A program made the translations under genes and the position numbers. DNA of 58,027 nucleotides from a virus. The notes beneath the pieces were generated by a model. The model was not told where the DNA came from. It ran no database searches and saw only the letters and a program-made list of their open reading frames with translations. Where the stretch lies: the IMG/VR virus record IMGVR_UViG_3300046694_000622, positions 1 to 58,027 of that record, one strand, 5' to 3'. Below are positions 1,603-57,868 of the stretch, piece by piece. The first letter of the stretch is position 1. The number at the start of each line of letters is the position of its first letter.

Positions 1603-1812
1603 ATGCCAAACTCAGACCTGCTCCCTTCCCTGCTGTACAAAATCAACGAAAACCAGCTCGCCTTGGAAGCCGCCATCATGGAGCTTTCGACCTGGGTCGA
1701 GCAGCGCGGGTCGGCCGACGTCGCCGACAACGTGCGCGGCGCCCTGGAAACTATCGACAAGAACGAAGAGTTCATCAAGATGACGCTCGCGGTGCTTTTG
1801 ACGCCGGAGTGA
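1603..1812 (+). CDS. Small acidic protein, copy 1 of a family of three
   Basis: 69 aa, preceded by CGGAGGATTCGCG. It reads MPNSDLLPSLLYKINENQL, then a WVEQRG motif and a C-terminal EEFIKMTLAVLL helix. It is clearly paralogous to 40325-40537 and 40590-40859, which share LLxxLNxNxLAxxxAVEEL-W-(V/I)(E/D)QxxG. A fourth, 3'-only fragment lies at 4027-4112. The protein looks all-helical and cytoplasmic. Function unknown; the family is familiar from Pseudomonas genomes as a small hypothetical. Confidence 0.75.
   Translation: MPNSDLLPSLLYKINENQLALEAAIMELSTWVEQRGSADVADNVRGALETIDKNEEFIKMTLAVLLTPE
1726..1811 (+). repeat. 86-bp direct repeat, copy 1
   Basis: The 3' half of the small gene at 1603-1812. 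It matches 4027-4112 over all 86 nt without gaps and with only about seven mismatches by eye. The two copies bracket the minus-strand cassette 1848-3781. Confidence 0.85.
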
Positions 1813-1847
1813 TTTTTCACTTGAAAGGGGTCAGAACCCGAAATCTC

Positions 1848-2360
1848 TTATTGCAGAGTAGCTGCGAAGTCCGGATCTACCTTTTTTCTAACATCAATGG
1901 CAAGTTTTTCTACATCAATACGCCCGGCCTTAACTGCCACCGACAACATTTCTTTCAACGTCCCAGCAGTAAACAAATGAATATTTGCCTTATTTTTAAT
2001 TTCCTCAACAATCAAATCTGAAATAGCCAGCAAGCTTTTTGTCGTCAATTTAGACAAATCCCTATGAGTATTGGAAAATTCCTCAGAAGCAGCTTTTCCC
2101 GGCGTTTCTTCAATTTCGATTTGACGCTTTATTAATTCCGCCTCTTCAAGAACTACAACATGAACTTTTTGAATATGATCCTGCCCAGACACCATGGCCA
2201 CAAGCCCATCAGCCAACAATTCTTTTGAGGCTATCCTCCACACAGACAATTCATTATTATCAGTGTTTAAACATTTTGAGAGAATATCGGAGTTGGCGTG
2301 GGTAGTATCATCCTCAACCAACCATTTATTCCTCTCAATTTTTCTGACAAGGTAAGACAT
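1848..2360 (-). CDS. Cassette gene C, hypothetical, 170 aa
   Basis: Third gene of an AT-rich minus-strand operon. AAGGAG lies about 7 nt before the ATG, and the start is 4 nt past the stop of the gene above. The protein starts MSYLVRKIERNKWL and has a predicted helical, charged middle (EEAELIKRQIEIEETPGK) and a C-terminal helical stretch. No membrane segment and no nuclease or NTPase motif seen. The tight coupling to the two upstream genes suggests a shared task. Function unknown; defence is a positional guess. Confidence 0.75.
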   Translation of the reverse strand: MSYLVRKIERNKWLVEDDTTHANSDILSKCLNTDNNELSVWRIASKELLADGLVAMVSGQDHIQKVHVVVLEEAELIKRQIEIEETPGKAASEEFSNTHRDLSKLTTKSLLAISDLIVEEIKNKANIHLFTAGTLKEMLSVAVKAGRIDVEKLAIDVRKKVDPDFAATLQ

Positions 2361-2364
2361 CCAC

Positions 2365-3012
2365 CTACTCCTTATCGTATTCTGCGACCAACTTCTTCCT
2401 ATACTCCTCCAGCCAAGCAGGAGTTAGCTCCCTGTTCTTCAACTGTTTTACGATAAGATCGGCATCTTCCCAATATTCGTAAACTCCAATCGCATATTCT
2501 TTCACGTCAACCCATGCCAGAGACAAGCAACTCAAAGCAAAGAGCTCATTTATGGGCCTAAACACCTCTCGATCAGCGTGAGTAATAACATTAAGCAAAC
2601 CCACTAATCTTTTAGGGTTATCCTGACTATCAGTAGCTATCCTAGCAAATTCCATTTGAACCATTGCAGGATCAATTTTTAGCCACGACGAGACAAAGTA
2701 ATCAGCTGAGGAATTAATTCCAGCCTCCACAATGTCGGTATCCAAGCAACGCTCCAGCCCTCGCCTAAACTCATTAGCTCGTGCATTTTGCTTATCATTA
2801 CTTCTGACTTCCGCGCCACCTAAATTCGTCTTAGACTTTGGCACACGCAATTTCAACGAAGACTTGGTAAGATCGACTACCTTTTGCTGAGTCTCTGTAT
2901 TTACAGTTGATGCAACTGTACTTTCCTCAAAGGAGTACGTTACCAAATTAGTATATGAAGTACTGTTACTAGCATCTTCCAATCCATAAGAAAAAGTGCT
3001 ATTGAATTTCAT
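2365..3012 (-). CDS. Cassette gene B, hypothetical, 215 aa
   Basis: The start overlaps the end of cassette gene A by 14 nt and has GGAG 8 nt upstream. The first 80 residues are Ser/Thr/Asn-rich and look flexible. The rest is helical (RRGLERCLDTDIVEAGINSS, LNVITHADREVF, LFALSCLSLAWVD) with an acidic, Trp/Tyr-rich end. No catalytic motif recognised. The helical C-terminal half could be a protein-interaction or sensor module; that is inference. Confidence 0.75.
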   Translation of the reverse strand: MKFNSTFSYGLEDASNSTSYTNLVTYSFEESTVASTVNTETQQKVVDLTKSSLKLRVPKSKTNLGGAEVRSNDKQNARANEFRRGLERCLDTDIVEAGINSSADYFVSSWLKIDPAMVQMEFARIATDSQDNPKRLVGLLNVITHADREVFRPINELFALSCLSLAWVDVKEYAIGVYEYWEDADLIVKQLKNRELTPAWLEEYRKKLVAEYDKE

Positions 3013-3781
3013 TTAGCAAAGCTCCGATTTTAATCTGAACTTCCTTTTCCCGACGTAGAGAGTACTCAACAAAATTCGCAAAAAAATCTAAGGTTCCCGG
3101 CACAACCTGGTCACCAGGTGTGTTGATATCAACCGTAAGATGTATAGTGTCAAACTCTTTAACACCATTCGCATCACCCATCTGTATATGCACCTGCGCT
3201 ACATTATATGTAGTATTAATAGCATGGTTATTTAGCCTACCAACTGTCTCTTTTAGTACCGAACGGGATTGCCACTCCGTCATTTCCATTTCAGGAAAAA
3301 TCACAGAGTCCCTCACAATAAACTTATCTCTAATAGATACTAAATGCTCTTTAGAGAACTCCCCAACAAAGGTCTCCGACACAATTCCAAGTCTGCCAAA
3401 ACTAATCCCCAACGTCTCAATGGAGCACTTCACCGCAGCAGTAGCAGACTCAATAAAAGCAGTAAAATCTAGTGCCGCCGCAGGGGAGCCAGGCAGTGGT
3501 ATTGCCATAACGTCTATTCGACCGTTGAGAAAATTCACCGCGATACCATTACGCATTGACTGCAATGTCAAGCGTGGTTCCATCCTACCGGTTTGCTGAT
3601 CTAACTCCTGAACCGAACTACCAGGAATAAAACCCAAGAAAAAGAACTTTTCAAGGCACTTTTTTAGAGTTTCTTCCGTCGGCTTTATCTCGGAATAATC
3701 ACCAAACAAAGAAACTTGGTACTTCAGCTTTGTATTTTTCAAATCTACGACTCCGTTGAACATCCTGTTCGGACAAACCAA
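2999..3781 (-). CDS. Cassette gene A, hypothetical, about 260 aa
   Basis: First gene of the three-gene operon. The longest frame opens with TTG at 3781; an in-frame ATG at 3763 (MFNGVVDLKN) is an alternative, and neither has an ideal Shine-Dalgarno. The protein is mixed alpha/beta, with QVSLFGDYSEIKPTEETLKK near the start and many alternating hydrophobic strands, reminiscent of TIGR04255-type beta-rich proteins. That resemblance is only an impression. No membrane segment. Base composition is clearly more AT-rich than the neighbouring tail genes. Confidence 0.75.
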   Translation of the reverse strand: MVCPNRMFNGVVDLKNTKLKYQVSLFGDYSEIKPTEETLKKCLEKFFFLGFIPGSSVQELDQQTGRMEPRLTLQSMRNGIAVNFLNGRIDVMAIPLPGSPAAALDFTAFIESATAAVKCSIETLGISFGRLGIVSETFVGEFSKEHLVSIRDKFIVRDSVIFPEMEMTEWQSRSVLKETVGRLNNHAINTTYNVAQVHIQMGDANGVKEFDTIHLTVDINTPGDQVVPGTLDFFANFVEYSLRREKEVQIKIGALLNEIQ

Positions 3782-4197
3782 CTCTCAATACCAGACAGGA
3801 TGAGTTTGGCAAAAACTTTATAACGATCACCTTATGGCGATCGATCATCAATCCGCAAGTATTACATTTTGCGTCCTCAAGCCGCTAGGCCCTCATACCT
3901 TAATGGCAAGCTTTTGAACAGCCTAGCATTACCTTTTTTACATCAGCGTTCGCCGGCACCTCTTCGGGATCAACGAACACCAGGTCGGACCATCATGCAT
4001 GTCGAGCCGCGTGACTCCGTGGAGGTGACAACCTGCGCGGCGCCCAGGAAGCTATCGACAAGAACGAAGAGTTCATCAAGATGACGTTCGCGGTGCTCAT
4101 GATGCCGGAGTGGCCATGGCACCGCAGAATTCAGGATAGAAATAGAGATATTCGTCTGGATACCCTCCGGGCGGAAAGGCACCAGGCTAGCTAGCAT
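3782..4197. other. Gene-poor stretch with repeat remnant
   Basis: Holds the upstream region and presumably the promoter of the cassette, then the 86-bp repeat copy. A short stretch (3867-3889, TTTTGCGTCCTCAAGCCG...) resembles 361-384 near the left end with a few mismatches and one gap, hinting at duplication or recombination. No intact gene seen. Confidence 0.5.
4027..4112 (+). pseudogene. 3' fragment of the small acidic gene; direct repeat copy 2
   Basis: Matches 1726-1811 nearly base for base and carries the codons of IDKNEEFIKMT, but the 5' half of the gene is absent and the stop is replaced (TGG). It is the far boundary of the 1848-3781 cassette. I infer insertion of the cassette by recombination at, or duplication of, the small gene. 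Confidence 0.8.
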
Positions 4198-4575
4198 TTA
4201 GGCCTCAATGTTCCTCAGGGCATTTTCCAAGTACTGAGCTAGGGCCGGGCTTTTGCCTGTGATTTTATCGGCAATATCATCGTCTTCATCGTTTTCAAAG
4301 ATAGCTCGCAACCTAGCAACACCGGCTTCTGGCGCCTCATCACTAGCATCCCCTCGCCCAAAGTACGCTAGAGCAATCAACTCAAGCTTTTTTTCCCGAC
4401 TTAGTGGTGCGATGGCTGCCGCGAGCTCGAGCTCCTCCGGGGTTCGATTAAGAATCCACTCGAGATCGATATCGGTCACGCGAACAACTTCAGGACCATC
4501 TTCAAGCATCGCTCGCGAGAGCTCCGCGATCCTGCGAATTTCACTCGGTGTGAGATATTTCAGTTTGTACGTCAT
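4198..4575 (-). CDS. DUF3775-like protein, 125 aa
   Basis: The ATG at 4575 is chosen because AAGGGA lies just upstream. The core KKLELIALAYFGRGD (about 76-90) resembles the LVALAWLGRGD signature of the DUF3775 family, which has no assigned role. The N-terminus is YKLKYLTPSEIRRIAELSR and the C-terminus is acidic (ENDEDDDIADKITG), ending in a helix. It is the last minus-strand gene before the lysis genes, so it may be a moron. Family call moderate. Confidence 0.65.
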   Translation of the reverse strand: MTYKLKYLTPSEIRRIAELSRAMLEDGPEVVRVTDIDLEWILNRTPEELELAAAIAPLSREKKLELIALAYFGRGDASDEAPEAGVARLRAIFENDEDDDIADKITGKSPALAQYLENALRNIEA

Positions 4576-4654
4576 ATTGCATCCCTTCGTTTGGTAGGCA
4601 CTCAATATGCCATTAGGAAAAACAAAGGGCGAGTCCGAAACCCTTCCAACCGAA

Positions 4655-4909
4655 TCACATGCACGCTGTGTTTGCAGCAGCCAGCTCCCGCTCATACCAG
4701 ATCCGCTGCCGGCGCCCAGCCAGTAGCGCCCGCACCTTCAGTTCCAGTCCATCGGACTTCTTCAGGTCAGCAGTTGCCCAAGGCGGCACTGCCACTTCTT
4801 GTGTCTTGCATGTCACAAGTACCGGTACCTCAAACCGTACAGTGCGCACTTCCGGCTCTTTGCTAGCGCATCCCGCCAGCATCACCACCCCCATCAGCAG
4901 CACCTTCAC
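4655..4909 (-). CDS. Rz1-like outer-membrane spanin lipoprotein
   Basis: 84 aa starting at GTG. The signal and lipobox MKVLLMGVVMLAGC predict acylation at Cys14. The rest is short, proline-containing and ends with a helical stretch, DGLELKVRALLAGRRQRIWY. The start overlaps the Rz end as GTGA, a classic Rz/Rz1 layout. With the inner-membrane spanin it fuses inner and outer membranes in the last step of lysis. The gene lies directly downstream of the endolysin. Confidence 0.8.
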   Translation of the reverse strand: MKVLLMGVVMLAGCASKEPEVRTVRFEVPVLVTCKTQEVAVPPWATADLKKSDGLELKVRALLAGRRQRIWYERELAAANTACM

Positions 4910-5211
4910 AGCCCCAACTCCTGATCAATAATCGTGTTACAGCTGCGCACTGATCACCGCCGGTTCGCTCCCGTAGCAGGCGATTCGCCGCTGCATATTC
5001 GCGAATGGCCCGGGTCCTGGCGTTGGTCTGAGCCTGGGCGGCGTTCCGCTCACGCTCCTGGCCAGCCTGCACCAGCTCGCCTTGCTCCCCCGCCAGCCCT
5101 TCCAAGTTGTCGCGACCGGCTTTGGTGGTAGCCAGCTCGGCATTGGCTGCATCAAGAGACCAGCCGGGAGGCCAGCGCCATCGGAACAAGCAACTTCTCA
5201 ACCAGAGTCAT
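4906..5211 (-). pseudogene. Rz-like inner-membrane spanin with disrupted frame
   Basis: The ATG at 5211 opens MTLVEKLLVPMALASRL and then meets a stop. The typical Rz coiled coil (ANAELATTKAGRDNLEGLAG ... ANRLLRERTGGDQCAAV) continues in another frame, and the expected end IIDQELGL with TGA at 4906 lies back in the first frame. Two compensating shifts, near 5150 and near 4934, explain this. The middle frame alone is open 5201-4863 but has no membrane anchor. Either the gene is damaged or the assembly has errors here. It sits between endolysin and Rz1. Confidence 0.65.
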
Positions 5212-5636
5212 TACGGCACATCCTTGAAGAAGACGTGGCCACCGAGCTTGAAGGTTTGCTTCGCTTTCGCGGCCCAGACCGGAGGCGTCTTCATGCTGGT
5301 CGCGTAGTAGTGCGTGGCACCGCCGGTAGGATCCGACACGTTTCCATCGATCACCTGGTCAGCGGCAATCCGCACCTGCGCGAGTTCACGAAATGGAATC
5401 TTCTTGGCGCCACTCAGGTAGGCGAAGTTCGGGTCGTTCCTGTTCCAGCAGCTGAACTGGTAAGGCTTCTGGCACACGCCGGCATAGCCCTCCCCCCACC
5501 ATGACTTGGTCTTGCCGTCGTTCACGCGATTGCAGATGGTCCAGGCCACGGCGATCTGGCCGGCCAGGGATTCGCCGCGGGCCTCGCCCCACAACGTGCG
5601 AGCGAGGATGTCGCGGTCATTCTCGGATACGGTCAT
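5211..5636 (-). CDS. Endolysin, SleB-type cell wall hydrolase
   Basis: About 141 aa from the ATG at 5636, with GGAGAAAAG upstream. The sequence TLWGEARGESLAGQIAVAWT (about 14-33) with NRV and the later DPTGGATHYYAT belongs to the Hydrolase_2/SleB family (PF07486), which cleaves peptidoglycan glycan strands; the Glu of GEARGE is the likely catalytic acid. No signal peptide, so export would depend on a holin. It is followed by Rz/Rz1, but the holins lie 24 kb away at 30.2-30.8 kb. Confidence 0.85.
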   Translation of the reverse strand: MTVSENDRDILARTLWGEARGESLAGQIAVAWTICNRVNDGKTKSWWGEGYAGVCQKPYQFSCWNRNDPNFAYLSGAKKIPFRELAQVRIAADQVIDGNVSDPTGGATHYYATSMKTPPVWAAKAKQTFKLGGHVFFKDVP

Positions 5637-5640
5637 CACT

Positions 5641-5675
5641 TTTCTCCGGGCAAAAAAAATCCCGCACTTGGCGGG
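5641..5675 (-). terminator. Hairpin terminator before the endolysin
   Basis: On the minus strand CCCGC-CAAGT-GCGGG is followed by a run of T and then by the endolysin ribosome site. It is one of four hairpin plus GGAGAAA boundaries in the late operon (also 7041-7062, 12060-12086, 12720-12745). Confidence 0.6.
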
Positions 5676-5695
5676 CCTTGGTGTGCGCTAGGCAC

Positions 5696-5956
5696 TCAGG
5701 CTTCGTTGAACTCGAACGCTTCGGCACTCACCGGCAACGGGTACCTGGCTTTGATGGCGGCCACAGAGGCAAGCCACGCGGTGTAGTCAGGGTCCAGGCC
5801 TTGGGAGAGAGCGTCATAGTCAGCCTCCAACCGCAATGGATCTGACTCGGCAAGGTAGGCGGTCCGGCGCGCATTGAGCGCAGCTTCAAGCTCCGCATTC
5901 TTGCGATCTTCCTGCTGCTGCTCGGCGGTGATCATTTGGCTAAAGTCGATGTTCAT
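5696..5956 (-). CDS. Tail fibre assembly or chaperone-like protein, 86 aa
   Basis: Helical, charged protein, MNIDFSQMITAEQQQEDRKN, with a middle LEADYDALSQGLDPDY and an acidic tail. Small proteins of this sort follow fibre genes in many tailed phages and act in fibre assembly or as tail accessory proteins. The start overlaps the preceding stop as ATGA, showing translational coupling. The role is inferred from position. Confidence 0.6.
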   Translation of the reverse strand: MNIDFSQMITAEQQQEDRKNAELEAALNARRTAYLAESDPLRLEADYDALSQGLDPDYTAWLASVAAIKARYPLPVSAEAFEFNEA

Positions 5957-6243
5957 TCTGGAAGCCTCACATCACCATCTGGCGGGTTAACAATGTCGCT
6001 GGGGAAGCGGACCGCGATGCTGGAATCCGCGTCGCAAGGAATCCCCAGGGCGATAATGAGGTCACCATTGCGACGGGTTACATCACCCACCAGGTGCTGA
6101 CACTGAACAGCCGACCAAGGCAGAACTGCACCTTCCGGCAGTTGCCGAAAGTCGAACGACTCCCCGTTGATGATCAGCACATCGCCGGATTTTTGAACTG
6201 AAAGCGGCGCCCGCCCGCCCTGCGGTGAAAGCTTGATGATCAT
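5953..6243 (-). CDS. Hypothetical tail-region protein, 96 aa
   Basis: The start at 6243 (MIIKLSPQGG) overlaps the fibre gene stop (ATGA) with GGTGG upstream. The protein is beta-rich (SVQKSGDVLIINGESFDFRQ) and soluble. Similar short proteins occur next to fibre genes of Pseudomonas phages without a defined role. Probably a virion or fibre accessory factor. Confidence 0.6.
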   Translation of the reverse strand: MIIKLSPQGGRAPLSVQKSGDVLIINGESFDFRQLPEGAVLPWSAVQCQHLVGDVTRRNGDLIIALGIPCDADSSIAVRFPSDIVNPPDGDVRLPE

Positions 6244-7022
6244 CAGTACCACCTTCCAATTGCTAAATACCGGCCACCGGAGATTGTTTGAGCGGTTGGA
6301 CCATTTCGGTAAACCGCCTTGCAAGACCAGTTGGCCCTTGAGTTATCTGTGGTGTAGCCATACACATCAAGACTTGATTGAGGTGTGCCAAAGGCCTGAT
6401 AGGTGTAGGTGGTGTCGGCAAACAGCACTGGGAACACGCCCAGCGGCGACACCGTCGCGATGGCACCGGCGGCCACTGCGAAGTCCGCAATCGGCCCCGT
6501 GCAAATCAGCCGGCCGTCTGCAAATTTCGTAGCCTCACCGTTCGCGTTCACCACCTTTTCAAAAATGGCGCCGGAAGGTACGCCGCCGCCTTGCGAGACG
6601 GTTCCGAGAATGGCCGCAACTGCTGCTGCGCCCAGGCCCAAGCCAGCACGTGCCGTACCCTGGGAATTGCCACCCGTCCCGCCTTTTGCAACGGGCACGA
6701 TGTTTTCGACAGAGACCGCGCCGAGTCCGGCCAACGTCGCCCCCCATTGGTCGACCAATTGCCGTAGGCGGTCGGCGGACTCTTTCACGTACCCCTGCAC
6801 CGGCACCACGGCATACGCCCCGCCAGCGGCGGTAGCACCTTGATATGCGGGGAGAATCGAAAGCACCGTAGTGCTGGCAATGTTCGAGACTTCGTACCAA
6901 CGCCCATCCGGGCCTTGAAAACCGTCGCCCACGCGCGCATTGGCGGCAAAGGCCGTACCAGTGCCGGTCACGGTGGTGCTGCCGCTGGTGACGGCGACTG
7001 TTCCTGATCTGTACCAGGGCAT
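6243..7022 (-). CDS. Tail fibre or collar-domain protein, 259 aa
   Basis: The N-terminus MPWYRSGTVAVTSGSTTVTG is a beta-structured module common at the start of Pseudomonas phage fibre proteins. The Gly/Ala-rich middle with VAKGGTGGNSQGTARAGLGL is a typical fibre collagen-like linker motif, and the C-terminus looks like a small receptor-binding or needle head (YQAFGTPQSSLDVYGYTT). GGAGA lies before the ATG. It probably helps host recognition at the tail tip. Confidence 0.75.
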   Translation of the reverse strand: MPWYRSGTVAVTSGSTTVTGTGTAFAANARVGDGFQGPDGRWYEVSNIASTTVLSILPAYQGATAAGGAYAVVPVQGYVKESADRLRQLVDQWGATLAGLGAVSVENIVPVAKGGTGGNSQGTARAGLGLGAAAVAAILGTVSQGGGVPSGAIFEKVVNANGEATKFADGRLICTGPIADFAVAAGAIATVSPLGVFPVLFADTTYTYQAFGTPQSSLDVYGYTTDNSRANWSCKAVYRNGPTAQTISGGRYLAIGRWY

Positions 7023-7040
7023 GAGTTTCTCCAGGCAATA

Positions 7041-7062
7041 AAAAACCCGCTCAGGACGGGCT
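7041..7062 (-). terminator. Hairpin terminator between fibre genes
   Basis: On the minus strand CCCG-TCCTGA-GCGGG followed by TTTTTT, then TTGCCTGGAGAAACTCATG, which is the start of the next gene. The same run precedes gene J at 12046. Confidence 0.6.
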
Positions 7063-7080
7063 TGGTTTTAGGTTGTTTGT

Positions 7081-7761
7081 TTATGCACTGAGTTTGGCAA
7101 ACACTGCGGGCAAGAAGAACGCGAAAGGGTTACCGGAACCAATAGTTAGTGCATACAAATTGCCACCCGAAAAATCCCACCAACAATACAGCGACCGACT
7201 CTGCTGCCCATCATTCAACATCGGCATACCGAAGGTATTGATAAGCATGTGTTCACCAGCGGGAAAGTTAAAGTTGACTCGATAGTAATTCCTAGGCACA
7301 GACTGCGCGGTGTAATCGGTTTTTACATAGCCCCAATTTTGGAATGAACGAGTGAATACAGCGTACGGCGTATCTGAATCAAACAGCAGCTTAGAGTTCC
7401 CATCCCACAAACGCATGCCAAACTTAGCTACCGCGCTAGCCGCGAAGCCACAGACAAAATAAGTCCCATTAGGCTGCAAGGTGTTTACGTCATAAGCTCG
7501 AACGTAGAACCCTGCCCACGCACCGGGTGATCCATTGACGCGCATAAAACACAAGCCGGCAACACCACTGTTACCCGCCGGCCGAATAAACACCAGCGGC
7601 GGCTCCTGGCTCGTAATTACAGCAGGGAAAAAAGTAGTCGATCCAAGACCTGATTCCTCTGTGGGTTGATAGGTTCCTTTTGCAAGTACTACCAACCTTG
7701 AAGACTCAGAATCGATTGTCACAACATTATCGCTATTTGTGTACTCTAATCCGTACGACAT
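7081..7761 (-). CDS. Tail tip or fibre protein, 226 aa
   Basis: Starts MSYGLEYTNSDNVVTIDSES. The repeated beta-strand pattern and aromatic-rich end (SLYCWWDFSGGNLYALTIG) fit a structural tail protein. Its ATG shares a base with the stop of the upstream 107-aa gene. The start motif (MSYGL/MSHGI) is shared with that upstream protein, so the two may be related in their N-terminal module. The role is inferred from its place between J and the collar-type fibre. Confidence 0.65.
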   Translation of the reverse strand: MSYGLEYTNSDNVVTIDSESSRLVVLAKGTYQPTEESGLGSTTFFPAVITSQEPPLVFIRPAGNSGVAGLCFMRVNGSPGAWAGFYVRAYDVNTLQPNGTYFVCGFAASAVAKFGMRLWDGNSKLLFDSDTPYAVFTRSFQNWGYVKTDYTAQSVPRNYYRVNFNFPAGEHMLINTFGMPMLNDGQQSRSLYCWWDFSGGNLYALTIGSGNPFAFFLPAVFAKLSA

Positions 7762-8084
7762 TAATAGAACCTTATTACTATGAGCCGCATGGTAACGCCG
7801 GTTTTATTACTGTATTGCTCTCGCCCACGTATATAGCTATACACACGAACAGCCCCGGCAATTACTTCAGTCTCAAGTTGTTTATCTAGGTTTACGTTGT
7901 AGCCGCCCACCGGCACGACGAAAGCGGCGCCGTTCTCCGGCGTTAGACCCGGCACCGAAATGGTTTGATAAGCAACCGAGTTACTGCCAGTCACGAGCCC
8001 GCTGTAAACGACCCGCATGGTGAAGGAGTTTTCATCTACTTGGAGCGCTCCATCGGCGCCCCATACCCGTATGCCATGGCTCAT
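7761..8084 (-). CDS. Tail tip accessory protein, 107 aa
   Basis: MSHGIRVWGADGALQVDENS and a beta-rich body; it overlaps the end of gene J by 4 nt (ATGA). Small J-proximal proteins with this opening are common in lambda-like Pseudomonas phages and are thought to be tail components. No enzymatic motif. Confidence 0.65.
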   Translation of the reverse strand: MSHGIRVWGADGALQVDENSFTMRVVYSGLVTGSNSVAYQTISVPGLTPENGAAFVVPVGGYNVNLDKQLETEVIAGAVRVYSYIRGREQYSNKTGVTMRLIVIRFY

Positions 8085-11000
8085 GCGTCGAGGTCCCCCA
8101 ACTGCACCCGCTTCACACCGTTCGCGTCATAGACCTTGATGGCTCTATTGGTCATCGTCAGGCGCCCACCACCAGCCCCCGGGCCGTTGAATTCCAAGTT
8201 GCCGGCCTTGTCCAGCTGCCAGCCTTGCACGCCGGCAATGTAGTTATCGGATTGCAGGTATTGGCCGATTTTCAGCATGGTGATGCTGCCGTTCTGGATA
8301 AAGGCCGAGTTCATGAACACTTGCCCGCCAGTGACCGCAAACGGCGAGGACAACGTACCGTTGACGCCGTTAACCACAGCAAAAAGATCCGCGCTCACCA
8401 GGAACTTGCTTTGCAACCCAGCCGGGCCGTTCTCAATGCCCAGCCCGATGCCCGCCGCCACGTACTGCCCTTGGCTGTTCAGCTGCATTTTTACCGACCA
8501 CATGGTGCGGGTCTTGCCATCAATCGATACCACCGCCTCACTGACTGTCTGTACGGCTGCGTTCGTGCTGCCGATAGAGACTTCCAGCTGTTCCGAGCGG
8601 CGCGCCTGGGCTGTATCACCATCCGCCCTGACGCGGGTTTCCTCGGCAAACTTCGCCGTAGATCCCCACGCCTGCAGCGCTCCAGCCAGAGTACCCTCCG
8701 CATCGTCATCCCGCCCGCCCATGTATACGGCCTCGACGGTAGTCCGGATCGAAGCCACCGCCGCATCGGTATCCACCTGAGCGTCCTGCACGTCCTGGAT
8801 CTTCGCCGAGCTGTCGTCGACCTCTAGTTCAATCGTGTTGATTCTCCGCGCCAGCGCATCATCTTCTCTGACGCGGGCCTCGGATTCAGCACCGATCGCC
8901 GCGGTATTGCCGCCGACCGAAGCGCTCAACAAATCCAGGCGGCTCGCTGTTGCAGTGCGGTCGATGACCAGCACCGTCTCCAGGGTACGGATTCCGGCTT
9001 GGTTGTTTGCAACCTGCGCATCGAGTGTGGTCAGGCGGATGGCCGTGGCCTCGCTTTCCGTAGCGCGGGTTCGCACCTCCACCGCAAACCTCGCGGCGCT
9101 ATCCCACTCACTCAGCGCCCCGGCCAAGTCCCCTTCCCCATCCTCATCCCGGTACGACGCCTGCAGTGATTGCAGGGAAGACGATGTAGCCGTGATCTTG
9201 CCGTCCACCGTGCTGATGTCGCTCGTGTTTTTATCGATCTGCACAGTCTGGGCGTTGACCGTCGTCACGATGCCGCCGATGTCGAGCCAGTAGGTCGAAT
9301 TAGGCGGCGCATTGGCCCCGCCGGCATTGGCGGGCACGGCCTTAATGGCGGTGTACAGGCGCTGGCCGCCGCGCACGTTGTCGTCTTTCAGGTAGCTTTT
9401 CGTCGGGACGTATTTCAGTGCATCAGTGATGCCATCGATCTGGCCCTGAAGCTCCTCCTTGGCCGCGTCAATTCGACCATTTACCGACTCCGGTCCGTCG
9501 CCGGAAATCTTGTCGATTTCATCCAGCAGGTGCTCGCCAAGCTCGGACTCGGTGATCTGGCCGGAGATCAAGTCCAGGATCGGGCCGGCTTCAGAGCTGG
9601 CCTGCCCCATCACGCCGCTTACCATTGGATAGAACGGACCGATGTTGCCGATCCTATCTACCAGGCGCGCCCAGAAGAAGAACGTGGTGCCCGCCAGCAA
9701 GCTCTGCATCGAGTAGTCGCTTTGCGGGTAGGCAAGGTCTGCCAGCTTCGTTGCCGCGCCCAGGTTGTTGGCCGGGCCATACCAGAGCTCCGTGCGCTGC
9801 GTGTCTTCGGCGCCAGCCGGGAAGCCCCACTTCAGGCGAATGCCAAACAGCAACGCTGTTGCGGTCAGGGATGTCACCGCCGGCGGCAAACCTGCTTTGC
9901 CCTTGAGGTTGGTCAGGATCGAGTTGCGCCAGATCGACGAGATGTCAAAGGCACTCACCGCGCGGACGCGGGCCACATAGGCACCAGCATAGATGCCGGT
10001 AACGTCGACACTGGTCAGCCCGGTGCGTTGCACTTTTATCCAGTTGCCGCTGTCCTTGCGCCACTCCACGTCGTAGCCGACCGCACCGGGCACCGCCGGC
10101 CAGGTAATCGTCATGGTGGCGACGGCGATGCCTTGGGAAACGACTGAACTTGCCGACAGGGTGACGCTGGCCGGCGCTGGAACGACGGTAATCGGGATGA
10201 CGCTGATCGGCCGCTCTTCCAATCGCGCGCCGGTATCGATGTGCGCAAACTTGCTTGGGTCGTACTGAACGGCCGAGATCTCGAACACACCTGGTTCGGG
10301 ACGGGATACGCTGGTCACTCGATACAGCGGCACAGCCAGATCGTCAGCGTCGAGCGCCCAGACAAGCTCGAGCTCCGGTACCGCCGAATAGGCAACAGTG
10401 ACTGTCACCACGCGGCCCGCCACGAATTGCACCGTACGCCCTTCGCATTTGCCATTAGGCAGGTTCAGGATCAGTCGATCGCCAGCCTTGGCCTGTGTGT
10501 CGCGGTCCAGCGTGATGGCGCGACGAGACACTGCGGTGATTCGCCCGCCGATTGCGCGGCCTGCCAGCAGTTCGTCAGCCACGGGAATGACGTAACCGGG
10601 TAGCGGGATCCGCCCGTCCAGACCCACTTTGAAACTGACGGCCCGGTCTTTGGCGTTGGTCAGCAGTGCCCATTTACCACGGCGCTGCGCCTCCGATTCC
10701 CGGGTGCAACCGACCGCGCTGATTTCCAGTGGGTTGTCACCGTAGCGCCGCTGCAACTTGGTATCGGTCACGGCGGTGACGTCAGTATCGTAGTTGTTTG
10801 CAGGATTGTCGTAGCTGATCAGAGCGCGGCTGTACCGAGTGCGCTCTGATGCGCTCGAATAGGTGAACTTGCCGTCGATGACATTTGCCCGGGTGTAAGC
10901 GAAGTCGAAGTCGGTTGCGCGCGGCATGTCCGACAGCGTGAAGACCTGGCCCTGCGCCCAGTAAGTCATGCCGCGGTAAATTGCCGAGATATCGCGCAGC

Positions 11001-12046
11001 AGCGACCAGGCATCGGCCTTGCCCTGCAGGTTGAGGTTGCAGATGAAGCGCGGCTCTTGCCCGCCCTTTCCGTCTGGCACCAACTGATCACAATACTGAG
11101 CGATCCGGTATAGCTCCCACTTATCGACCTGCCACGGTTTGATCCGACGACCAAGGCCGAAGCGGTCATTTACCGTGATGCCGTAGGTCACCCACGCTGG
11201 GTTATCGGTCCAAGCTTGCTTGAATGTTCCGTCCCAGATGCCGGTATAGGAGCGGGTCTCAGGATCGTAATTGCTTGGCACCTGCCATTTGCGGGCCCGG
11301 CAGTCGACAGTCACCGCCGGGATGTTGCGGAACTGCTCGGCCGAAAACTCGATGTAGAGAAGAGCGGTATTCGGATAGCGCAGCTTGGCGTCGATGACTT
11401 CAGTGAAGCCTGCGATCTGCATGGTGTCGGCGATTTTGTTGTTGTTCTGGTTGGGAGTGACACGGGTGATGCGCATCAGCCAGCCGCTGTTCGCCACTGG
11501 CAAGTCGATGCGTCGCGTGCGCTCGTAGGTGCTGGTGGTCTTGCCGTCGACAGCCTCGCTCAGCACTTGTTGATAGGCGCCGCCATCGGTGGCCAACTCA
11601 ACCTTGTACTCGATCCGGTAGCCGTTCACGTTGCCACTGGCATCGACCGATTGCAGGGCGGGCCAGGCGAAGCGCAGGCGCACGGCCGACAGTTCGGTAT
11701 TGCTGATTGCTCGCACATAGGGCGTACCGCTGCGCAGCTCGATACCGATTGAGGTCTCGTTCTCGATCGACGGAATACCCTGAATGTAACCCTGTTCGAT
11801 GGAGCCGCTGCGGTACTCCCACTTCACGTTCGGGAAGTTCATGTTGCCCTGGGGATCTTGCAGGGGCGTGTTGTCGAGATAAATGTCCTTGGCGGTCGGA
11901 ATGCCAGCGAACTCACCCTCACCCATGGCGATCAGGATCTTGGCCATAGCCACTGAGCGCAGGCTATCGGGCGCCTCAGTCGGGGTCTTGGGTTTGTCAG
12001 ATCCGCCCTTGGCGCCGTAAATTTCAACCTGCTGTGCTGCGTCCAT
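8081..12046 (-). CDS. J: Central tail fibre / host specificity protein J
   Basis: 1321 aa. The ATG at 12046 follows CTGGAGAAACTC and is preferred over a longer upstream frame. The N-terminal third is the phage tail J module (IYGAKGGSDKPKTPTEAPDS, later WQVDKWELYRIAQYCDQLVP). Fibronectin-III-like domains follow (about 650-830). The C-terminal part has repeated helical segments (TTVNAQTVQIDKNTSDISTV) and a DUF1983-type domain. In lambda, J forms the tail tip that binds the receptor. Size fits the family. Confidence 0.9.
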   Translation of the reverse strand: MDAAQQVEIYGAKGGSDKPKTPTEAPDSLRSVAMAKILIAMGEGEFAGIPTAKDIYLDNTPLQDPQGNMNFPNVKWEYRSGSIEQGYIQGIPSIENETSIGIELRSGTPYVRAISNTELSAVRLRFAWPALQSVDASGNVNGYRIEYKVELATDGGAYQQVLSEAVDGKTTSTYERTRRIDLPVANSGWLMRITRVTPNQNNNKIADTMQIAGFTEVIDAKLRYPNTALLYIEFSAEQFRNIPAVTVDCRARKWQVPSNYDPETRSYTGIWDGTFKQAWTDNPAWVTYGITVNDRFGLGRRIKPWQVDKWELYRIAQYCDQLVPDGKGGQEPRFICNLNLQGKADAWSLLRDISAIYRGMTYWAQGQVFTLSDMPRATDFDFAYTRANVIDGKFTYSSASERTRYSRALISYDNPANNYDTDVTAVTDTKLQRRYGDNPLEISAVGCTRESEAQRRGKWALLTNAKDRAVSFKVGLDGRIPLPGYVIPVADELLAGRAIGGRITAVSRRAITLDRDTQAKAGDRLILNLPNGKCEGRTVQFVAGRVVTVTVAYSAVPELELVWALDADDLAVPLYRVTSVSRPEPGVFEISAVQYDPSKFAHIDTGARLEERPISVIPITVVPAPASVTLSASSVVSQGIAVATMTITWPAVPGAVGYDVEWRKDSGNWIKVQRTGLTSVDVTGIYAGAYVARVRAVSAFDISSIWRNSILTNLKGKAGLPPAVTSLTATALLFGIRLKWGFPAGAEDTQRTELWYGPANNLGAATKLADLAYPQSDYSMQSLLAGTTFFFWARLVDRIGNIGPFYPMVSGVMGQASSEAGPILDLISGQITESELGEHLLDEIDKISGDGPESVNGRIDAAKEELQGQIDGITDALKYVPTKSYLKDDNVRGGQRLYTAIKAVPANAGGANAPPNSTYWLDIGGIVTTVNAQTVQIDKNTSDISTVDGKITATSSSLQSLQASYRDEDGEGDLAGALSEWDSAARFAVEVRTRATESEATAIRLTTLDAQVANNQAGIRTLETVLVIDRTATASRLDLLSASVGGNTAAIGAESEARVREDDALARRINTIELEVDDSSAKIQDVQDAQVDTDAAVASIRTTVEAVYMGGRDDDAEGTLAGALQAWGSTAKFAEETRVRADGDTAQARRSEQLEVSIGSTNAAVQTVSEAVVSIDGKTRTMWSVKMQLNSQGQYVAAGIGLGIENGPAGLQSKFLVSADLFAVVNGVNGTLSSPFAVTGGQVFMNSAFIQNGSITMLKIGQYLQSDNYIAGVQGWQLDKAGNLEFNGPGAGGGRLTMTNRAIKVYDANGVKRVQLGDLDA

Positions 12047-12059
12047 GAGTTTCTCCAGG

Positions 12060-12086
12060 CAATAAAAAACCGCCTCATGGGCGGCT
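12060..12086 (-). terminator. Hairpin terminator before gene J
   Basis: On the minus strand GCCGCC-CATGA-GGCGG is followed by TTTTTT and then the J ribosome site. It would limit read-through between the I and J genes. Confidence 0.6.
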
Positions 12087-12105
12087 GCGGCATTCGACTG
12101 CTCGA

Positions 12106-12705
12106 CTACATCTGGTCTTCGGCGTAGATCGCTGCACTGATGATCGCGCCACCCCAGCGGCGCTTGCCGATGCACAGTGGGACCGGGTTGCCGGATGCGG
12201 TGGTGTTCTTGGCGCTGCCGAAGGCATAGCCGGGGGTATTCTCGGGGGCAGCGCTGGTCTTCAGGCCCTTTGGTTGCGGGCTGAGCATTTGAACCACGCC
12301 ACCTGCCACCATTGCGATACCTACCGGCACAAGATTCAAGCTTGCCCCGCCCGTAGGGCCTGCAAGCAAGTATCCTGCGGCGATGAGCACAGCCCCTATT
12401 ACTGTTTGAATCACGCCGCCTCGCTTGCTACCGGTAATGATGGGAGCAATCCGAATTTCGCCAGAGCCACCATAGCTAAGCTCTTTTTCCGAAAGGTTTG
12501 AAGATCCACGGAAAACTGCAAACTCCAATCCCCTGGACTTTGCATTGGAGACGAAGCGCTCGAAGCCGGCTATCTGAACGCATAACGCTTTGATCGCCTC
12601 TGCCGGCGAGCGAACAGATAACCTGAACTCACGGCCGAACTGCCTCAAAGCTCCGTAGAGCTTGATGGTTGTCAGGGGCTGGTAATTGATGGCGAGCGTC
12701 GACAT
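12106..12705 (-). CDS. I: Tail assembly protein I
   Basis: 199 aa, lambda tail I family. An N-terminal ubiquitin-like fold (IKLYGALRQFGREFRLSVRS) is followed by a hydrophobic glycine-rich segment (about 103-140, VIGAVLIAAGYLLAGPTGGA) and a proline-rich end. Lambda I is needed for tail tip assembly but is not found in the mature virion. It sits between K and J as in lambda, with a lipoprotein gene inserted between K and I. Confidence 0.85.
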   Translation of the reverse strand: MSTLAINYQPLTTIKLYGALRQFGREFRLSVRSPAEAIKALCVQIAGFERFVSNAKSRGLEFAVFRGSSNLSEKELSYGGSGEIRIAPIITGSKRGGVIQTVIGAVLIAAGYLLAGPTGGASLNLVPVGIAMVAGGVVQMLSPQPKGLKTSAAPENTPGYAFGSAKNTTASGNPVPLCIGKRRWGGAIISAAIYAEDQM

Positions 12706-12719
12706 AACTTTTCTCCGAG

Positions 12720-12745
12720 CAATAAAAAACCGCCCGAAGGCGGTT
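12720..12745 (-). terminator. Hairpin terminator before gene I
   Basis: On the minus strand ACCGCC-TTCG-GGCGGT, a UUCG-type tetraloop hairpin, followed by TTTTTT. It ends the lipoprotein gene and precedes a GGAGAAAAG ribosome site. Confidence 0.7.
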
Positions 12746-12759
12746 TTAATTCATGCGCA

Positions 12760-13098
12760 CTACAGGCAGGATCGAGCAGTTTCTCCCCACTTTCCACCGC
12801 CCATGATTGCACTCGATTTGTAAATCCTCACCTGCGAGCCGCTGCCGGATCGATCGATATTAGCCAGCGCTGACGCTCCAACATAATCAAGATTCAGTAG
12901 AAGCCTGTAGCCTGTCTCAGTTTCGGTTGAGGTGGTCGCTGCATTGATTTCTTGCCACTTTGGCATGAGGCACTTTGCATATTTTGCAGGTTCTTTCGTC
13001 GTCGAAGCGGAAAGCTCTGGATTTCCTTCCTCGAGGGATGAAACCGAAGAACACCCCGCCAGCAGCATCACCGCCACCGCCCCTATCAAAATCCGCAT
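12760..13098 (-). CDS. Small lipoprotein moron within the tail operon
   Basis: 112 aa from the ATG at 13098 (GAGGA 7 nt upstream). The signal sequence and lipobox MRILIGAVAVMLLAGCSS predict a lipid-anchored protein. The mature part is short with two more Cys residues. It lies between K and I and is closed by its own terminator. Lipoproteins in such positions can block superinfection at the cell surface; that role is inference. Confidence 0.7.
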   Translation of the reverse strand: MRILIGAVAVMLLAGCSSVSSLEEGNPELSASTTKEPAKYAKCLMPKWQEINAATTSTETETGYRLLLNLDYVGASALANIDRSGSGSQVRIYKSSAIMGGGKWGETARSCL

Positions 13099-13130
13099 GA
13101 CCATTCCTCATCCTGAAAATGCCGACTGTA

Positions 13131-13886
13131 TCATTGCGCAGAGCGATGACGAAGAATCAGCCGTGCACGGTCCAGCCAAGGCCCGCCGAAGACAATAATC
13201 TCGCTTGGGCGGCCGTACAGGTGGTGCAGCAGGAAAGGTCCGGGGCCGAAGGTGTTCGCTTCTTCACCTGACAGAGCCGGATCGGAGCCGAGGTAGATCC
13301 CCGCATGGTTCGGGTGAGCCGTTCGGCCGACTGCCATGACAATCATGTCGCCGCGTTGTGGATGGTCGACACGGACAAAGCCCGCCGTCTCGTAGTTCGC
13401 TTCATACAGGCTGACCGCGTCCGCACTTTCCCACCAGCCGTCCTCACGCTTGAAGGCCTCGAACTCCAGCCCCAATTCGCGCTTGTACCAGTCCGCGCAA
13501 ACCTGCCAGCAGTCCCAGGCGCCGTGCACGAATGGCCGATTGAGTAGCGGCGTGCTGCCGGTCGGAGTGATGCTGCGCAAATCACCTTCCGGCCAGCTCA
13601 GGATGTGCCAAGGTAAAGCAGTCGCCTCACACATGGCCAAGTCATGCGCGGAAGGCCGGCTAGTGGCATCAGGATGCGAGTGAACGATGCCGATAACCTC
13701 GCCCAGATCTTCCGCTGACGCGTAGTCCTCCGGGTCGATCCGGAACTCTTCGTTTGGATCGGCCGCGATGTTCCGGCACGGGTGATACCGTTGTTTTCGC
13801 CCTACGGCCAGCAGCAAGCCACAGCACTCTTTCGGGTACTCGGCGGCGGCGTGTGCCTGGATCGCGCTCAGGATGTGCTTGCGCAT
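13131..13886 (-). CDS. K: Tail assembly protein K, JAMM and NlpC/P60 domains
   Basis: 251 aa with two domains. The N-terminal JAB/MPN metalloprotease has H69-S-H71, S79 and D82 of the JAMM motif. The C-terminal NlpC/P60 peptidase domain has the likely catalytic Cys126 (AWDCWQ) and His194 (PNHAGIY). Lambda K has this same two-domain build and acts in tail tip assembly, possibly in local peptidoglycan cleavage during injection. Confidence 0.88.
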   Translation of the reverse strand: MRKHILSAIQAHAAAEYPKECCGLLLAVGRKQRYHPCRNIAADPNEEFRIDPEDYASAEDLGEVIGIVHSHPDATSRPSAHDLAMCEATALPWHILSWPEGDLRSITPTGSTPLLNRPFVHGAWDCWQVCADWYKRELGLEFEAFKREDGWWESADAVSLYEANYETAGFVRVDHPQRGDMIVMAVGRTAHPNHAGIYLGSDPALSGEEANTFGPGPFLLHHLYGRPSEIIVFGGPWLDRARLILRHRSAQ

Positions 13887-13888
13887 GA

Positions 13889-14641
13889 TCAGCTCCGGGC
13901 AATCAGTGAAACGGCTGGAAACCCACCGTGGGGGAGTTGGTTATTCTGTCCGAAGCGCAATTGGCAGGACTTGAGCCCGCCCTTGCACTGATCCTTGCTC
14001 GGATCATCCGTGGGCTTGTCGTCGTCATCGAACCGTGCGCCGCCGGTATAGCCGCAGTTCGGCCCGCGGTAACCACCAGTCATGGCCCAATGGCAGAACG
14101 TGGTCATCTGGCGCCCCGGCAGCCCGTGGTTGTCGATCTCTCCTGGCGATGAAAGCTCCCACTGCACAGCCTCGCCGTCCTCGCCGGTTTTCTGATCAAT
14201 GAACCAGATCTCCAGCGCCTCCTGAGTGGGATCAGCAGTCGGGTTGCCGGCCGGGAAGTTCTTCGCATCGAGGTATTGAGCCATGGTCTCGCGTACGGTC
14301 AGCTGAAACTTCAGCAAATCGTCGAAGGCCAAGCACAGCGCCGTGATACGCCCGTTGACGTTGCCAGCAGTGAACACTGGCCGCGTTGCGGTGCCATTAC
14401 TGTCTGCGCCGATGCCTTCTATCTGAACCGGCCAGGCCGCGTATTCGTTGCCCTGCCACCAGATCGACTTGGCTGGCAGTTCGTCTACTGAACCCTCGTA
14501 TGCCAGCAGCTCGGCGGGTGTGTGCGGGATCGCGTGACCGTGGAAACGCAGCACGTCGGCGCCATACTCCGTGCCGTCAATTTCAAATAGCCGCACTTCC
14601 CCGCCGGGCTCCAGTTTCTGGATGTCCGTTATCAATGCCAT
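13889..14641 (-). CDS. L: Minor tail protein L
   Basis: 250 aa, Phage_tail_L family. The C-terminal half has conserved cysteines (FCHW, NCGY, QCKGGLKSC) that bind an iron-sulfur cluster in lambda L. It is a distal tail ring component. AAGGA lies upstream of the ATG. K follows after 2 nt and M precedes by 12 nt, as in lambda. Confidence 0.87.
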   Translation of the reverse strand: MALITDIQKLEPGGEVRLFEIDGTEYGADVLRFHGHAIPHTPAELLAYEGSVDELPAKSIWWQGNEYAAWPVQIEGIGADSNGTATRPVFTAGNVNGRITALCLAFDDLLKFQLTVRETMAQYLDAKNFPAGNPTADPTQEALEIWFIDQKTGEDGEAVQWELSSPGEIDNHGLPGRQMTTFCHWAMTGGYRGPNCGYTGGARFDDDDKPTDDPSKDQCKGGLKSCQLRFGQNNQLPHGGFPAVSLIARS

Positions 14642-40324: not shown

Positions 40325-40537
40325 ATGCCGACCAACGACCTCATCCCTTCTCTGATCTACAAACTCAACGAGAACCAACTCGCCATAGCGGCAGCTGTGG
40401 AAGATCTGTCCATTTGGATAGAACAACTGCATGGTCCCGCTGAAGACGGGACCAGAATCCGTAATTCACTGACCAAACTGGATGAAAACTTAGAGTTCAT
40501 CACGCGCGGGGTCGCCTCGTTGTTGAATGATCGATAG
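40325..40537 (+). CDS. Small acidic protein, copy 2 of the family
   Basis: 70 aa with a strong AAAGGAGGATC. MPTNDLIPSLIYKLNENQLA, WIEQ and LDENLEFITRGVASLL align along the whole length with 1603-1812. The third copy follows 52 nt later. Clearly a duplicated gene pair. Function unknown. Confidence 0.75.
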   Translation: MPTNDLIPSLIYKLNENQLAIAAAVEDLSIWIEQLHGPAEDGTRIRNSLTKLDENLEFITRGVASLLNDR

Positions 40538-43089: not shown

Positions 43090-43159
43090 GACCATGTAGC
43101 TCAGTTGGTAGAGCGGCCTCGCAAAAGGCGCGCCGGTGGTTCGAACCCACCCATGGATG
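43090..43159 (+). tRNA. Degenerate tRNA-like sequence
   Basis: D-arm GCTC-AGTTGGTA-GAGC and T-arm GGTGG-TTCGAAC-CCACC are perfect, and the bases TA join acceptor and D-stem correctly. The acceptor pairs only in part (GACCATG with CATGGAT), the anticodon arm is irregular (GCCT-CGCAAA-AGGC) and CCA is missing. About 70 nt. It may be a decayed tRNA or a tRNA-like regulator; anticodon not assigned. Confidence 0.5.
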
Positions 43160-43450
43160 CCGGTATCGCACCCGGCCAGATCCCACCCCGATGCGGATGA
43201 TTCTGCACCGCGCAACGCGGCCCCCTGCATTGCCAATTCAATAGGTGGCCACTGCCTGCCCAGTGAGCGAGCAATAGGAGCCTGCGCCATGAAGTAGATG
43301 AACGACCCACCCGCGTGGCGCGGTAAGCCTGAAGGCTGCGCCCAACACCATGGCAGGCAGCGGAAAGCAGGGCCGAGGATGTGACCGCGCATCAACCGGG
43401 GACCGGTAGGCCCAACCGAAGACACATCGCACATTGCTGATGCTGCACAC

Positions 43451-54117: not shown

Positions 54118-57868
<3,751 letters not shown>

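Follow-up and report, generated by a model that had tools for sequence, protein, structure and literature searches.

A mobile three-gene cassette at the edge of a Pseudomonas prophage, probably involved in phage defence

Introduction

Three neighbouring genes of low GC content lie at the edge of a Pseudomonas prophage, next to a small gene that is partly repeated on their other side. The question raised by this locus is whether the three genes are a chance feature of one prophage or a portable unit, and in the latter case what purpose the unit serves. The window, meaning the whole stretch of DNA analyzed, is the IMG/VR virus record IMGVR_UViG_3300046694_000622 with a length of 58,027 nucleotides. 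The original prediction, made from the sequence alone, described a tight operon of three genes with no recognised domains between two 86-bp direct repeats near a prophage end, explained it as a cargo insertion by repeat-mediated recombination, and proposed an undescribed three-component defence unit. What was observed at the locus is confirmed by the present analysis, with one correction regarding the second repeat copy. The interpretation is supported only in part, because the defence hypothesis agrees with the genomic evidence and the repeat explanation is not supported as stated.

Structure of the locus

The first 5.5 kb of the window contain an intact small gene, the three genes C, B, and A, a second and partial copy of the small gene, a DUF3775 gene, and the lysis genes. 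The features are as follows.

1603..1812 (+), intact small gene, phrog_12397 (E 2e-38), marking one edge of a prophage-end cargo hotspot
1726..1811 (+), direct repeat, copy 1, the 3' part of the intact small gene
1834..3903, extent of the transferable unit as shared with the near relative L002 (83% DNA identity)
1848..2360 (-), gene C, 170 aa, the most conserved protein, proposed effector
2365..3012 (-), gene B, 215 aa, variable N-terminus and conserved helical C-terminus, proposed linker
2999..3781 (-), gene A, 260 aa with uncertain start, first gene of the operon, proposed sensor
4027..4112 (+), direct repeat, copy 2, the best preserved part of a decayed second copy of the small gene
4198..4695, gene of a DUF3775 protein (E 1e-8) of unknown role, next to the decayed repeat copy
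5211..5639 (-), endolysin (cell wall hydrolase, PF07486, E 7e-19), the other edge of the cargo hotspot

The gene coordinates, the 14-nt overlap of A and B (2999–3012), and the 4-nt gap between B and C (2361–2364) were exactly as predicted. The start of A is uncertain and may be a TTG at 3781 or an in-frame ATG at about 3763. The repeat is 86 nt long and 92% identical between its two copies. The second copy, however, is not just a clean 3' half of the small gene. A gapped alignment extended the similarity back to about position 3960 with several deletions (score of 187 against at most 74 in 200 shuffles), indicating the decayed remnant of a longer copy. The GC content of the cassette is 41.4%, as compared to 58.5% for positions 4198–14000 and 56.9% for the window. 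The position at a prophage edge is plausible, since a 41-bp direct repeat with 90% identity links 23–63 to 55194–55234, which is compatible with prophage ends, and in many related records the small gene is at the first base of the provirus. An Ala/Gly-rich ORF of 119 aa (389–748) also lies near the prophage edge.

Properties of the predicted proteins

Searches of Pfam, NCBIfam, and PADLOC returned nothing credible for any of the three proteins, and in these libraries the absence of recognised domains holds. PHROGs gave matches for all three, C to phrog_10743 (E 3e-20), B to phrog_14576 (E 1e-5), and A to phrog_19817 (E 9e-4). All three families are labelled as unknown function, only the match of C is strong, and the entries shown do not link them as an operon. 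The Acinetobacter phage Ab105-1phi, found with C, has genes of 226, 215, and 197 aa in the same order after its endolysin gene, of which C matched at E 5e-15 and B at E 1e-8 (30% identity to the middle gene). The relationship of A was too weak for BLAST in this phage but is clear with a profile (E 1e-44), although that profile contains a near-identical sequence and the result shows alignment to the family built here and not independent proof.

AlphaFold gave confident models for A (pLDDT 87.8, pTM 0.84) and C (pLDDT 90.6), neither of which has a PDB match at E below 0.001. The best PDB hits of the model of A were AdoMetDC and ACT-like folds at E of 1.6e-3 or worse and with TM below 0.3 in the top ranks, and hits in a viral structure library were weak and scattered. 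The fold search with the model of C returned nothing, as did the searches of PDB sequence profiles. Judged by its order of secondary structure elements, and not by any database match, the predicted structure of A looks like two repeats of a strand-helix-strands-helix unit, as in TBP-like or helix-grip folds. Protein A has conserved R130, E169-W170, R173, and T221. In C the residues R6, K12, W13, D25, C30, T33, L38, S39, W41, and H99 are invariant, and N36 and D101 are nearly so. Protein B has a variable first half and a conserved end.

Distribution of the three genes

The near relative L002 has all three genes at 84–88% identity, with dN/dS of 0.07–0.11 against the window. A scan with C found 41 loci in viral contigs, and a second scan found 12 loci in bacterial genomes, namely Kushneria, Pantoea, Microbulbifer, Thalassomonas, another Pseudomonadales genome, Spirochaetaceae, Prevotella, Bacteroidales, Victivallales, Planctomycetota, Phycisphaerales, and Lachnospiraceae. 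Whether the genes travel together outside this prophage had been set as a test beforehand, and across all loci collected, 60 of 65 encoding C also encode A and B in the same order and on the same strand. Many of these 60 are near-identical Acinetobacter prophages (loci L019–L041) and a few are the same place counted again, so the count is not of independent events. Among the exceptions, L061 ends at a contig edge, L045 is an IS-adjacent remnant, and L060 retains a weak A match, and only L062 and L066 look like real B-C pairs without A. Over 20 distinct loci the pairwise identities of A, B, and C are correlated (rank correlation 0.57–0.69, permutation p 5e-4). The cassette is rare and scattered, being present in 3 of 392 and 1 of 395 species genomes in two orders with the query genomes included, yet it is present in several phyla.

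Genomic neighbourhood

In P2-like prophages the cassette lies between the replication gene and the portal gene (the gpA–gpQ locus) in E. coli (L050 and L051), in Pantoea (L053), and in several IMG/VR prophages (L015, L046, and L047). This locus, where Old/Tin and several validated systems lie, is an experimentally established reservoir of anti-phage systems (PMC9122126). Of 5,426 complete E. coli genomes, 6 had a DNA match, two of them covering most of the query, and one of the partial matches, L051, proved on reading to hold all three genes. In the P2-like prophage L010 (767–6109) the cassette follows PtuA and PtuB of Septu (E 5e-188 and 1e-100) and precedes the portal gene. A DinI-like gene lies close to the cassette in E. 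coli P2-like prophages (annotated in L050 and L051) and, by eye, in several IMG/VR prophages (L015, L042–L044), but it is a resident of the P2 locus that is also found in L155 and L156 without the cassette, and it may be only a neighbour.

The cassette also occurs in lambdoid prophages near what were read as NinB-like or Q-like genes, in Acinetobacter prophages after the endolysin gene, and beside integrase genes (L012 and L014). Plasmids with the cassette include those of Klebsiella (4,375 bp and 8,065 bp), Enterobacter (5,042 bp, with the operon across the record start), and Acinetobacter (7.5 kb and 134 kb). It is nearly the only cargo of the 4.4-kb Klebsiella and 5.0-kb Enterobacter plasmids. 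Several chromosomal copies, on the other hand, lie beside housekeeping genes with no evident defence island.

The repeat and the cargo hotspot

The small gene has 475 relatives in IMG/VR. In 36 related prophages in which both the small gene and the endolysin were found, 0.9–8.7 kb of differing sequence lies between them, in 95 ORF clusters that are mostly singletons, although the ORFs were called mechanically and some are not genes. The region between the two (1603–5639 in the window, also examined in loci L068–L147) is a variable cargo hotspot at the end of many Pseudomonas prophages. Fifteen of 87 loci examined, the window included, have more than one copy of the small gene, with up to three full copies in locus L097. 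A 48-bp fragment with 83% similarity to the small gene also lies at 40337–40384, far from the prophage end. Of ten cargo proteins, three matched PADLOC models: PD-T7-3 in L118 (E 5e-168, between two copies of the small gene), an AbiLi-like ATPase in L129 (E 3e-62, with an Mrr-type nuclease nearby by Pfam), and an HNH protein in L115 with matches to CBASS-effector models. Others had DUF4062 or PIN_8 domains. These ten were picked because they looked defence-like, so the fraction is not a rate. The same hotspot also carries non-defence cargo such as an acyltransferase-like gene and a transposase, as judged by eye.

The flanking repeat did not follow the presence of the cassette. L002 has the three genes beside a single intact small gene, and its homology to the window over the cassette runs from 1834 to 3903 without the decayed copy. 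Nearly all the other loci with two or more copies of the small gene carry different cargo, and only L011/L096, which are one contig, have the three genes. The repeat is therefore a property of the hotspot and not a footprint of this cassette, although it may help cargo exchange by recombination. A repeat-driven insertion specific to this cassette was rejected on these grounds.

Interpretation and alternative explanations

The explanation favoured here, with fairly good confidence, is that the three genes are a portable anti-phage (superinfection-blocking) cassette of undescribed families carried as cargo by prophages, small plasmids, and chromosomes. The analysis itself establishes that the genes form one co-inherited unit under purifying selection, which has spread across distant bacteria and has been placed repeatedly in known phage-defence hotspots and beside known defence genes. 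That the cassette reduces phage plating, that the three proteins act together, and how they would do so is inferred. In this view A, with its confident model, two-repeat strand/helix architecture, and polar conserved residues, would sense an infection cue, B would link A to C, and C, whose model is also confident and whose invariant R, K, D, C, T, and H and near-invariant N and D residues are as in a catalytic or ligand pocket, would be the effector that stops phage growth, most likely by abortive infection. The assignment of these roles is a guess from conservation and predicted fold. Since no component matches a PADLOC, Pfam, or NCBIfam family, the proposed function rests on neighbourhood, and many genes in prophage hotspots are not defence genes but serve partition, metabolism, or as toxins. 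The fold searches give no biochemical clue.

Other explanations are considered less likely. A three-gene toxin-antitoxin or addiction module that stabilises plasmids and prophages, with any phage resistance being secondary, would agree with the presence on 4–8 kb plasmids with little else, the position at prophage ends, and the compact overlapping genes. The family scans, however, showed no similarity to any toxin or antitoxin family, and three co-conserved mid-sized proteins placed in the P2 and Pseudomonas defence hotspots fit defence better, although the classes overlap. Cargo for another purpose, such as counter-defence, lysogenic conversion, or regulation of the prophage, is made possible by the non-defence cargo of the Pseudomonas hotspot, but the presence on plasmids and in chromosomes of distant phyla and the repeated co-location with defence genes make it improbable. 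Virion, tail, or lysis genes of this phage were suggested by the location beside lysis genes here and after the endolysin gene in Ab105-1phi. This reading is refuted by distribution, as the cassette is absent from nearly all relatives of the prophage and is found on plasmids without phage genes. Its low GC also speaks against it.

It is also unlikely, though not excluded, that the cassette is the validated Rst_3HP system or a divergent form of it. Rst_3HP, a set of three adjacent genes without predicted domains from the gpA–gpQ locus of P2-like prophages that blocks P1, is the one published system found that fits the description in words (PMC9122126). The three genes share with it the hotspot, the gene number, and the lack of domains, and they occur at low frequency in E. 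coli P2-like prophages. They also span plasmids, lambdoid and Pseudomonas prophages, and other phyla. Versions from E. coli hotspots, Klebsiella, Acinetobacter, and Pseudomonas gave no PADLOC-DB v2.0.0 hit to a defence model of this kind, and a survey that used PADLOC with v2.0.0 has reported 3HP calls (PMC10855318). This argues against identity but is indirect, because the presence of 3HP models in the library is inferred from that survey. Two E. coli P2 hotspots that were looked at carried other genes and not an obvious 3HP trio. A literature search for the protein accessions of the Klebsiella and E. coli copies found nothing.

Old/Tin, Septu, PD-T7-3, and other hotspot defence systems occupy the same genomic niches as the cassette, and the PADLOC scans found no homology of these to A, B, or C. 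It is possible, but tentative, that the cassette is an undescribed and widely spread anti-phage system built from three protein families not represented in the defence library searched, with a sensor and an effector whose predicted folds have no convincing PDB counterpart, and therefore possibly with a new biochemical mechanism. If confirmed, it would add a defence system that Pfam, NCBIfam, and PADLOC do not detect although it spans several phyla, and the 4.4-kb plasmid and the E. coli P2 hotspots provide short, clonable test cases. The finding also points to a cargo hotspot at Pseudomonas prophage ends, marked by a duplicated 69-residue gene and not found described in the papers searched, where more unknown defence genes may lie.

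Comparison with TIGR04255 and other features

Proteins of TIGR04255 ("sporadically distributed") are similar in length to A, are encoded by the first gene of compact multi-gene operons of unknown function, and by eye have an R-L-G-like and a D-x-N/D element in similar places. Membership of A in this family was not supported, as the family scan gave no TIGR04255 hit at E <= 1 and a profile comparison (hhalign) with a seven-sequence TIGR04255 alignment gave a probability of 2.7%. C showed no similarity to the neighbouring genes tested in those operons, and a likeness seen by eye between C and the third gene of TIGR04255 operons did not survive profile alignment. None of the papers searched contains the term TIGR04255. 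In loci L148–L154, TIGR04255 genes head compact operons with differing partners, which by eye include HNH, HTH, and unknown proteins. Elsewhere in the window, a single low-quality tRNA-like call with an odd anticodon was obtained at 43090–43161.
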